Shown here: positions 9,589 to 32,429 of the stretch, piece by piece | How positions within the stretch are numbered: the stretch's first letter is position 1 | Layout of the letters: each line of letters starts with the position of its first letter | NCBI GenBank assembly: GCA_937136395.1 | Contig: CAKZOI010000025.1 | Coordinates: 1 to 39,514 of the forward strand | Direction: 5' to 3' | Length of the DNA: 39,514 nt | Source of the DNA: an uncultured Opitutia bacterium | GTDB taxonomy: Bacteria > Verrucomicrobiota > Verrucomicrobiia > Opitutales > Coraliomargaritaceae | Notes under the pieces: generated by a model | Databases searched by the model: none | Told to the model about the DNA's origin: nothing | What the model saw: the letters and a program-made list of their open reading frames with translations, nothing else | Translations under genes and position numbers: made by a program

Positions 9589-9664
9589 GTAGGGGCTTCA
9601 TTGATGAAGCCCGTGGTGGATCGGTTGCTTGGCTTTGGCGGTCTCCATCAATGAAGGCCCTACG
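9589..9664. repeat. REPIN-like inverted pair upstream of nadC
   Basis: Unit 1 (9589-9613) starts GTAGGG and has arms GGGCTTC/GAAGCCC around ATTGAT. Unit 2, on the minus strand from 9664 to 9639, starts CGTAGGG and has a similar but imperfect stem with the same ATTGAT loop. A related single unit lies at 31335-31359. The pair sits between the 3' end of the lipoprotein gene and the start of nadC. Confidence 0.75.
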
Positions 9665-24362: not shown

Positions 24363-25712
24363 CTAAATCAGGCAAGCAAGAAGCGCTTTCTCTTCGTCAG
24401 GAGTCACCAGCACGACGATACGGTCACCCGCGAGGATCATGTCGTCTGCTGCGGGCACTTTGGCTTTGAATTTATGCAAAAGTGCAACGAACAAGCTGCC
24501 ACGTGGCAGCTTAATGTCTTTGACCATACGACCGACACAAGGGCTTGAATGCTTAATCCGCACTTCAATGATCTTGCCGCCGTTGTTTGGCATCTGTGCC
24601 AGCGTGATTGTGCGATCGGTGGAGAGATTGCGCACCATGAAGTTGGCCGTTGCGCTGCGGGGCGAAACCACCAGTTCGATTCCGAGCATCGTGCGTAAGA
24701 TGCCTAGCAAATGGTCGTAGTCGCCCTTGTTGATCACGAGCTGCACATGGTTGACGCCCAGCTTTGACGCTTGCAAGCAGGTAAGAATGTTCTCCTCGTC
24801 GTCTTTGGTGCAGGCCACGAAGTAGTCCGCGCTGCCGATTTGCTCCTCCTCAAGCAAGCGCAGCGAAGTGGCATCGCCATTGATTACAGTGATTTCAGGA
24901 AAACGTTCAGCCAAAGAGCGGCACTTCTTTTCATCTTTTTCAATAATGCGAATCTTAAAACGCGGATTGGAGAGCAGTCGTATTAAACTAATCGCGGTTT
25001 CACTGCCGCCGAAGAGCACCACGCTGGAAACGTCTATTTTATGCTTTGGGTCAAAGCGATCACGTAGACCGAAAAGCGCTTCAGGATGACCAAAAAGAGT
25101 GACTGTATCGCCCTCCATGAGTTCCGTATCTGCACTGGCAACCTCTGTTTGGCCGCCCCTTTGAATATAACCGATACGCACACGTGCGTCGAACTTCAGG
25201 TCTTTGAGCTTGCGCCCAATGATACGTGCACCTGGCGCAATTTTCTGTTGCTGCACTTCGATTTGCCCGCGGGCGAAATTCTCCACCGCCACACGGCCCG
25301 CATTACGAATTTCCTTTGCTAGCTCAACTGCGCAGATCGCCTCTGGGTTCACCAAGAGGTCGATTCCGAAGTGGAGCTGGTAGTTGATCACCGAGTTATC
25401 GCTGAACGTTTCGTCGTGTATACGAGCAATGGTATTCTTGGCCCCGAGCCCCTTCGCGAGCGAGCAAGAGATGACATTCGTGCGGTCATCACTCGTCATC
25501 GCCAGGAAAGCATCACACTTTGCCACGTTTACATCCACGAGCTGTCGAGCCGAGCCGCCATTGCCGTTGATAATACGCGCGTTCTGCTCCTCATCGAGTT
25601 TTTCACAGCGGATATCCGATTGCTCGATGAGGGTAACGTCGTGCCCCGCCGCGGCGAGCGTCGTGCATAAATTATGGCCGACTTCACCGGCACCAACAAT
25701 GATGATTTTCAT
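24363..25712 (-). CDS. trkA: Trk potassium uptake regulator TrkA
   Basis: TrkA is the cytoplasmic, nucleotide-gated regulator of the TrkH channel. The 449-residue protein has two RCK repeats, each a Rossmann domain plus TrkA-C domain: the first starts [16 protein letters not shown] (residue 3 on), the second [17 protein letters not shown] (about residue 232). The conserved acidic end of the nucleotide site ([12 protein letters not shown]) fits NAD(H) or ATP binding. It is the first gene of trkA-trkH. No Shine-Dalgarno precedes the ATG. Confidence 0.95.
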
Positions 25713-25865
25713 AGTAGGAAGTCTAAATGGAATTCAAACTTTCGGCCATTGTGACGGGTCAGTTCCGCATTTCCAGCGAAATATTGAGTGTGTTTTATGC
25801 ATAATCTGATGAGGGAGCGTGAGAAATGTTTCCCGTTTGTGTTCGGTTGGGTTTGTGGGGCTACT

Positions 25866-25961
25866 GCGGACGCGTGAAACGCGTCCCTCCAGAAGGGAGT
25901 GGATTCTTAGTAAGAAATGTTGGGTAGAGCTAAAATGGAGGGACGCGTTTCACGCGTCCGC
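25866..25961. repeat. REPIN flanking the RAYT pseudogene (3' side)
   Basis: Two inverted units occur. The unit at 25936-25961 has the head TGGAG, perfect 8-bp arms GGACGCGT/ACGCGTCC with the loop TTC, then GC. Its inverted copy at 25866-25891 has the same stem with loop GAA, as expected from inversion. The 44 bases between them show no pattern. It ends two bases before the end of the restored RAYT reading frame. Confidence 0.9.
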
Positions 25962-25963
25962 AG

Positions 25964-26497
25964 TCAGTCATGCCAGCTAAGTTGAGTGACTTCACCTTGG
26001 TATCGCCAATCGTGTCTATTATCTACTAATTCATGCCGAACGGGATTGCTCGATACATAGGCCCACTTCTCCGTGTAGGATTCTTCGGAGCGTAATTGCC
26101 GATCCCAACAGGATTTTTGCTAGAGTGGCTTTTGCGAACTATTTGGCCATAGCCTCGTGACATATGCTTTCCAGTATTGGACCCATTTATGGATTGGCCG
26201 TGGCGGGAAGACTGCAGGCGCACAGAATAAATGGATGTGGTCGGGTAGGATCATGTAATTGCCAACGTGAAAGGCATCGGCCGCACGCGATGCTTCCAAG
26301 AGGATATGGTGTGCTGTCTCATTTGCTAAAATAGGTGCCCTATTTTTCGTGCAAACCGTGATAAATATAAGATTTGATCGATTTCCAATCTCGATGATTG
26401 GTGCTTTGGCTGGGGATTTTCGCTGTGGGAGGCTGGGCTTGTCAGGCATTTTTGGAGCTTTGGGTGTTCGGCGGACGTGTGAAACACGTCCCTCCAT
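25964..26497 (-). pseudogene. RAYT (REP-associated tyrosine transposase), broken by an amber codon
   Basis: RAYTs are single-domain IS200-like HUH nucleases that mobilise REP palindromes. The frame from 26497 shows NLIFITVCTKNRAPIL, the HUH motif PDHIHLF (His87, His89) and WVQYWKAYVTRLWPN. A TAG at 26122-26120 (codon 126) stops it where relatives have Trp (PLWQ). In the same frame, uninterrupted sequence continues: KSCWDRQLRSEESYTEKWA, SSNPVRHELVD and so on to TGA at 25966-25964. The second part carries the region where the catalytic Tyr should lie, so the truncated product should be inactive. The first 16 codons lie in REP sequence; ATG 26449 is probably the true start. REPINs flank it on both sides. 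Confidence 0.88.
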
Positions 26498-26532
26498 TTA
26501 ATAGGCTGGAGGGACGCATTTTACGCGTCCGC
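26471..26532. repeat. REPIN flanking the RAYT pseudogene (5' side)
   Basis: The unit at 26507-26532 has the head TGGAG and arms GGACGCAT/ACGCGTCC with one mismatch. The inverted unit (minus strand, 26496 to 26471) has arms GGACGTGT/ACACGTCC, a perfect pair in which the changes relative to the 25936 unit are compensated on both arms. The element overlaps the first possible start codon of the RAYT frame. Confidence 0.88.
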
Positions 26533-26558: not shown

Positions 26559-27485
26559 CTACAGCAACGACACTTCGACGCCGAAGGTCGCGCTTTCGCC
26601 ACCAGCGACTGCGTGCAGCCCTTTGCCATGTTCGGGACTATTTGGTGGGCCCATCCAAGGCTCGACACAGTAAAAGGGGCTGTCGGGCTTTTCGGTCCAC
26701 ACGACAAAGGCGTTCCAAGTGGAGTGTGTATTGGAATCGTTAAGCAGACGAATGCCGATGTCTTCTTCCCCGCCATTAGGGCCAAAAATCGCGGTATCTC
26801 CTTTCAGACGGGTGTAAATTCGATCGTTGTTTGCAGGATCGCCAAACGAGCACTTTTTGTCCCAACCTTTTGCAACCGGCAGCAGTGAGCCGTCTGGTGC
26901 GTGGGTGAAGCACTTCTTTGCGGGTATTTCGAAGCGGTAGTCTTTGCGGGACAGGCCATCGTGCCAAGGGAGCGTGAAATAGAAGTGGTGTCCTGCGGAC
27001 CAGAGAATGGGCGCGTCGCCAAGATTATCGAGGCGTAGGTAGACCTTGAAGGACACTTGCTCGAAGACGTAGCGGACAGTAAAGCGGTAATTAAACGGGT
27101 AGGCGGCTTGGTCAGCTTCAGTCGGTTTGAGCTCGGCGGTGAAGCCTGATTCGTCGACCGCGACGATTTCAAACTGTCCGTTACGCGAAAATCCGTGCAT
27201 CGGCATTGGGCGGACGACGCCCTCCTGGTCCTTCCATTCGCCTATCTTACCTTTGTTGTAGGTGCGGGCTGCAAAGGGAAACAAGATCGGGTTGCCTCCG
27301 CGCACTTTGGCGAAGTTATTATAGTCCGCATCCTCTGGCCAGTGAATGACATCGCGGTAGGAGCCGTCGCTCATCCGCAGATTCCAATTCATCAGACGCG
27401 CGCCGAGTTCTGGACGCGCTAGAAAGGTCGATGGACCGCAGTTCCAGCTATGCAGCGTCACGCCGTTAAAGTCGATTGTTTCCAT
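26559..27485 (-). CDS. Aldose 1-epimerase-like (mutarotase family) protein
   Basis: The 308-residue protein has a galactose-mutarotase-like fold. Features are [19 protein letters not shown] near the start, [26 protein letters not shown] (a catalytic-His context), [17 protein letters not shown] (second His region) and a C-terminal [12 protein letters not shown] with the conserved Glu of this family. Together these fit interconversion of sugar anomers, though relatives act on hexose 6-phosphates or unknown sugars. It is alone on its strand between the RAYT region and the nfeD operon, whose start lies 134 bases away, divergent. Confidence 0.88.
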
Positions 27486-32338: not shown

Positions 32339-32429
32339 GTAGAAGCGACACTCTTGTCGCTTTTGCAGATGATAAGCTGTCTAGGAGCGTTTTGCTGACG
32401 TATGAAAGCGACAAGAGTGTCGCTTCTAC
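32339..32429. repeat. REPIN-like inverted repeat pair
   Basis: Unit 1 (32339-32363) has arms AAGCGAC/GTCGCTT around ACTCTT after the head GTAG. Unit 2 (32405-32429) is an exact inverted copy over 25 bases. It occupies most of the 241-base spacer between the RodZ-like gene and prmA. The near-perfect copy suggests a recent event or strong conversion. Confidence 0.85.

Follow-up and report, generated by a model that had tools for sequence, protein, structure and literature searches.

A RAYT gene interrupted by an amber codon between two REPINs, and the state of the same locus in two congeners

How did a RAYT (TnpA-REP) gene lying between REPINs come to be interrupted by a single amber codon, and what has become of its REPs? 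The question is raised by a frame on the reverse strand of a 39,514-nt stretch of DNA (the window), which is the entire contig C25 of the draft genome of an uncultured Opitutia bacterium (G000; 106 contigs). A preliminary description of the letters alone had read this locus as a RAYT recently killed by one TGG to TAG change and flanked by two REPINs that match each other. It is very probable, in our judgement, that a REPtron inserted between an epimerase gene and trkA, was kept by selection and was then lost separately in G000 and in a congener, G002, the loss in G000 being due to nonsense at a tryptophan codon.

The RAYT frame and its amber codon

The frame has 161 codons (25967-26449, reverse strand) and runs from an ATG at 26449-26447 to a last codon at 25969-25967, followed by its own TGA at 25966-25964. 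This start is the conserved one; an alternative ATG at 26497 sits inside a REP. That the frame is a RAYT broken by one stop is confirmed by profile and by fold, and the identity first assigned to it holds. The NCBIfam family NF047646 (REP_Tyr_transpos) matches the read-through residues (26446-25970) with 86.9 bits, above its cut-off of 80, and the pre-stop part alone with 34.7 bits; in a six-frame search of the genome, with the stop left in, the locus scores 79.2 bits. Y1_Tnp gives 23.5 bits on the read-through protein (cut-off 23) and 18.9 bits without the post-stop part. An AlphaFold model of the read-through protein, built on an alignment of 29 sequences (mean pLDDT 87.2, pTM 0.80), has the E. 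coli REP transposase as its closest structure (4er8_A; Z 14.1, rmsd 2.8, 133 residues) and 2a6m as its second match (Z 10.7); Foldseek gives E 4.7e-7. The HUH motif is present as PDHIHLF, its H71 and H73 being invariant, and the gene is flanked on both sides by inverted REPs or REPINs. The signature Y---NP of class 2 RAYTs, in which Asn119 belongs to the metal site (available text of PMC6006769), appears as YVSSNP, aligned to Tyr115 and Asn119 of 4er8; it is located behind the stop and is hence missing from the product.

Two conserved neighbours enclose the gene, both on the reverse strand. One is trkA (24363-25712), which fixes the locus as orthologous in two other genomes of the same genus, G001 and G002; the other is an aldose-1-epimerase-like gene (26559-27485) with a TAG as its own stop. 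A stretch at about 25720-25790, just upstream of trkA (CTCTGGAAAT ... GTCACA), recurs before trkA in many members of the family and looks, from its letters, like a conserved promoter or leader.

The amber codon is codon 110 (26120-26122, read on the reverse strand as 26122-26120). In a profile alignment to 4er8 the W-Q pair, R104, Tyr115 and Asn119 are all in register, and the stop occupies the place of Trp94. The residue at this place is Trp in all 12 close relatives. Among RAYT loci from named genomes it is Trp in 76 of 80, Phe in the other four and a stop in none, the 80 being the best of 231 confirmed matches, which were found via conserved peptides and are thus biased to intact genes. As the remainder of the frame is intact, a single TGG to TAG change accounts for the truncation, just as had been proposed. 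The open part of 109 codons (26123-26449) keeps the HUH histidines (71 and 73) and nothing after them of the active centre described here: the 51 conserved codons that are no longer translated (25967-26119) hold the equivalents of Q95, R104, Tyr115 and Asn119, so that Tyr131 and Asn135 of the frame fall behind the stop, and the strand and helix that follow residue 114 of the model are absent from the stub. In the available text of PMC6006769, the region tied to reading of the REP tetranucleotide includes W94, Q95, E100, H101 and R104, and the role of W94 is called unclear. Since the stop spares only the HUH motif and takes away residues that contact the guide as well as the catalytic Tyr and the partnering Asn, the stub should be unable to cleave or move REPs.

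With the E. coli protein (PDB 4er8; described in the available texts of PMC6006769 and PMC8266576) the window RAYT shares the fold, the HUH motif and the equivalents of W94, Q95, R104, Tyr115 and Asn119, but it has Asp at the place of E100 and Arg at that of H101 (W-D-R). Its REPs also differ, having a GGAG foot in place of GTAG and, where the E. coli stem is bulged, a short perfect one of 8 bp closed by a 3-nt loop. A perfect 8 + 8 stem that follows the tetranucleotide immediately and is closed by a 3-nt loop, together with D at position 100, is found in the Group 3 or subclass 2.5 REPtrons of S. maltophilia and Marinomonas, as described in the same text of PMC8266576. The tetranucleotide GGAG sets the window system apart from these as well, and the likeness is one of features.

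REPs at the locus and elsewhere

The REP of this locus is 25 nt long, with GGAG directly 5' of an 8-bp stem closed by a 3-nt loop, and all four copies at the locus carry the GGAG. Inverted-repeat and REP searches delimit the downstream REPIN at 25863-25964; it consists of two identical REPs (25866-25890, reverse; 25937-25961, forward) within perfect 29-nt arms separated by 44 nt. The upstream REPIN (26471-26532) is shorter and pairs a REP with a compensated stem change (26471-26495, reverse) with one that has an uncompensated stem change and a loop change (26508-26532, forward). As single-stranded DNA both fold better than expected (z -13.2 downstream, -7.2 upstream), the uncompensated REP having a fold energy of -6.4 kcal/mol compared with -10.0 and -8.5 kcal/mol for the others. 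The two REPINs had been said to be unlike the majority of REPs in the window; there are no others of their family in it, the four copies scoring 40-47 bits and the next match 13.9. The two further REPIN-like loci of the window belong to different, GTAG-headed families. One is an imperfect inverted repeat with arms 88% complementary (9589-9663); the other, found by the inverted-repeat search, is a REPIN with perfect 25-nt arms (32339-32429). The REP of the latter occurs 31 times in G000 but in neither G001 nor G002, and it also flanks a RAYT on contig C39. The frame of that RAYT is open, stops 10 residues past the Tyr and, at 49 bits, falls short of the cut-off.

Across 12 genomes, at up to three mismatches, the REP of the RAYT locus has 18 copies: 4 in G000, 1 in G001, 13 in G002 and none in the other nine. 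A reversed control pattern has no match in the same search. All four copies in G000 sit at the RAYT locus and none is dispersed, so at this threshold there is no sign of spread; in G002, 12 of the 13 lie away from the RAYT, despite the gene being broken there too. A covariance model recovers the same strong matches and adds in G000 only weaker ones of 24.7-28.7 bits (150 of 1384 candidates scored). There are five of these; the ones on contigs C6 and C22 are members of a separate GGAG family, GGAGGGACGCGCTCCGTCGCGTCCGCC, with 6 copies in G000 and 2 in G002, and another is on C35.

That the compensated stem change is peculiar to the RAYT locus is not supported. In G002 the stem has T in 8 of 13 copies, with the matching A in 7 of those 8; the compensated form belongs to the standing variation of this REP. 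The T/A form lies upstream of the RAYT in G000 and downstream of it in G002; therefore, there has been REP turnover at the locus since the two species diverged, which resembles the 'orthoswitch' in the available text of PMC3686654.

Congeners, selection and the age of the lesion

G002 keeps the order epimerase-RAYT-trkA, and its RAYT DNA is 72.6% identical to the G000 copy. Its codon 110 is TGG, so the TAG is not common to all relatives, yet the G002 orthologue is broken by lesions of its own, a 1-base deletion at codon 81 and a TGA at codon 89. In G001 the gap between epimerase and trkA is 111 nt and the RAYT is absent. The epimerase adjoins trkA in 13 of the 18 trkA loci examined (of 30 found). 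A check of RAYT matches found none between the two genes at the 11 paired loci other than those of G000 and G002, so the insertion is known from these two genomes only. There is no intact orthologue at the trkA site, the sole one, that of G002, being itself broken; intact relatives are at most 57% identical and all at other loci. The empty site in G001 may reflect gain of the RAYT after G001 split off, or loss in G001, and both readings stand because a tree of 1246 residues from three proteins groups G000 with G002 with only 69% support. A deletion scar in G001 was considered and not upheld. The 111-nt spacer and the last codons of the G002 RAYT have 10 nt in common, GGCATGATTG, and a match as good was reached in 102 of 20000 shuffled spacers, in a test picked after the match had been noticed; the native spacer of another genome, G004, carries GATTG at a similar place.

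The G000 and G002 genes were compared over 157 of the 161 codons; codons 81 and 161 (gapped) and 89 and 110 (stops) were excluded. Differences at the three codon positions number 26, 23 and 82. Before the stop pN/pS is 0.139/0.734 (ratio 0.19) and after it 0.158/0.767 (0.21), ratios that are rough given synonymous sites near saturation; the neighbours give 0.058/0.742 (trkA) and 0.054/0.740 (epimerase). Most of the divergence between the two RAYTs appears to have arisen while selection acted, before the stop codon as well as behind it, and the early statement that the 51 codons behind it are intact and protein-like stands. That statement had led to the view that the inactivation is recent. The conserved tail and the lack of any extra stop favour this view, which is only loosely bounded: neutral simulation gives a probability of 0.79 that no extra stop has arisen at 1% divergence, 0.50 at 3%, 0.095 at 10% and 0.039 at 15%. 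It is fair to call the inactivation recent, without a sharp date.

The order of events that we infer begins with insertion of a RAYT between its own REPINs at the epimerase-trkA site, in an ancestor of at least G000 and G002. The gene would have been under selection for most of the time since the two lineages parted, and each lineage would then have lost it by different mutations. In G000 nonsense at the conserved Trp would end the protein at residue 109, leaving a stub that retains the HUH metal ligands but neither the part responsible for reading the REP foot nor the catalytic Tyr with its partner Asn. G000 has no further RAYT of this clade, the next-best match in it being 35% identical (E 2.7e-8), and we infer that REPs of this family have no other RAYT to act on them there; they would be orphans, now only able to decay.

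Decay of the gene is preferred over recoding because TAG ends neighbouring genes and because the G002 orthologue has TGG at the site, with a frameshift and a TGA of its own. Here TAG serves as a normal stop, used by 9 of 25 long ORFs hand-picked from the ORF list and by the adjoining epimerase, which counts against its being read through, by suppression or recoding, to yield full-length RAYT at a low rate; no tRNA gene, and so no suppressor, lies within the window. The post-stop codons are as conserved as those before the stop, as readthrough would have it, but equal conservation is also expected of a young stop. A second RAYT of G000 has a stop at the same Trp, which might suggest recoding, but one is TAG and the other TGA, and no stop stands there in any of the 80 best relatives. 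Readthrough is accordingly judged very unlikely. Somewhat less so, while still improbable, is an error of sequencing or assembly in an intact gene: a single base in one draft assembly of 106 contigs is at issue, the frame being otherwise flawless, but the two separate lesions in the G002 orthologue make loss at this locus plausible in the genus. A function of the 109-residue stub itself, for example as a REP-binding repressor, scarcely deserves credence. In the model the stub would retain the HUH half of the fold, but it is without the strand and helix beyond residue 114 and also the residues that recognize the guide according to the available text of PMC6006769; G002 has not kept the same stub, and the absence of a further stop in the lost part says nothing in favour of this idea.

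RAYT pseudogenes as such are already known, and the window case is one of ordinary gene decay. Such genes with nonsense or frameshift lesions are described from fluorescent pseudomonads and stenotrophomonads, with a model in which orphan REPs decay, in the available text of Nunvar et al. 2013 (PMC3686654). The lesioned RAYT flanked by its own REPs is like those cases; it differs from the ones in that text in that a single locus can be compared across three Opitutales congeners with different fates, and in its GGAG foot in place of GT[AG]G. The interest lies in how cleanly a single REPtron can be followed through parallel loss, with one locus in three states in three congeners and REP counts to match each (G000 4, G002 13, G001 1), so that the model in which REPs decay once their RAYT is gone, as worded in that text, becomes testable within a genus. 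The dispersed copies of G002 beside its broken RAYT mean that REP spread is not tied to the gene's present state. The preliminary description had looked to a TAG in all relatives together with continued spread of the REPs as a sign that another transposase acts on them. The outcome is intermediate: G002 has TGG at the codon but a gene broken elsewhere, and the REPs are confined to the locus in G000 but number 13 in G002.

The GGAG foot and related RAYTs

The amber codon itself is of modest interest, and the GGAG foot is the wider point. Every one of the RAYTs closest to that of the window has GGAG-headed REPs at its flanks. A GGAG-headed hairpin lies no more than 350 nt from the gene at 63 of 80 RAYT loci (the best 80 of 231) and GT[AG]G alone at none, while control stretches of the same loci have a GGAG-headed hairpin in 5 of 79 and 4 of 79 cases. 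The foot departs from the GT[AG]G definition given in the texts consulted. It is absent from the main texts of PMC3733652, PMC6006769 and PMC8266576 and, judged by title, from the papers listed in literature searches, and it may be new in print. The tag points to a little-described branch of RAYTs.

The residue at E. coli position 101 covaries with the type of foot, and this is a strong lead from sequence comparison. In a set of 253 distinct RAYT domains, with duplicated loci merged, 85 are of GGAG type, 58 of GT[AG]G type and 110, of which 31 have His, were unclassed and left out. His occupies position 101 in none of the 85 and in 52 of the 58, one row (L308, the REP of which reads GTAGGAG) having been moved by hand from GGAG to GT[AG]G; six GT[AG]G-type domains are without it. 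Across RAYT loci of many genomes (L088-L350), GGAG feet go with Thr, Arg or Ser and GT[AG]G feet with His. One close group unites L236, with a TGGAG foot and Arg, and L242 and L249, with GTGG and GTAG feet and His. On a tree made without the contact stretch there are eight foot switches on the best tree and three on well-supported branches, compared with one supported switch on an earlier tree of 92 rows. Residue 101 follows the switch in most pairings and never goes the opposite way (sign test, p 0.25). With only three supported independent switches the link lacks proof, and in subclasses 2.5 and 2.7 H101 is at times R with the foot unchanged (available text of PMC6006769). We therefore put forward only tentatively, as somewhat less probable than its contrary, that a large RAYT branch has GGAG REPs and that residue 101, His as against Thr, Arg or Ser, might set the foot tetranucleotide that is read. 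If so, a single residue would switch specificity between the two kinds of REPtron. If the branch uses GGAG, REP surveys based on GT[AG]G would miss such repeats, and if residue 101 tracks the foot, the recognition code between RAYT and REP would be open to a simple swap experiment.

Three more RAYT loci of G000 may be recorded. On contig C22 a RAYT (locus L200, about 1980) has TGA at the same conserved Trp that is TAG in the window. A hot spot or recoding at this Trp was considered on that account and set aside: stops occur in 4 of the 80 best relatives, none of them at that position, and codon 110 offers only 5.3% of the one-step nonsense paths in the RAYT frame. On C71 (locus L201) there is a RAYT remnant, the HUH half of which is out of frame or has stops upstream. 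On C70 (locus L202:1234-3120) a MenE-like o-succinylbenzoate-CoA ligase is fused in frame to a RAYT in one open frame of 628 codons, with the AMP-binding part at residues 118-408 and the RAYT at residues 455-587; menC precedes the fusion and a PolX-like gene follows it, part of the linker recurring in the opening codons of that gene.
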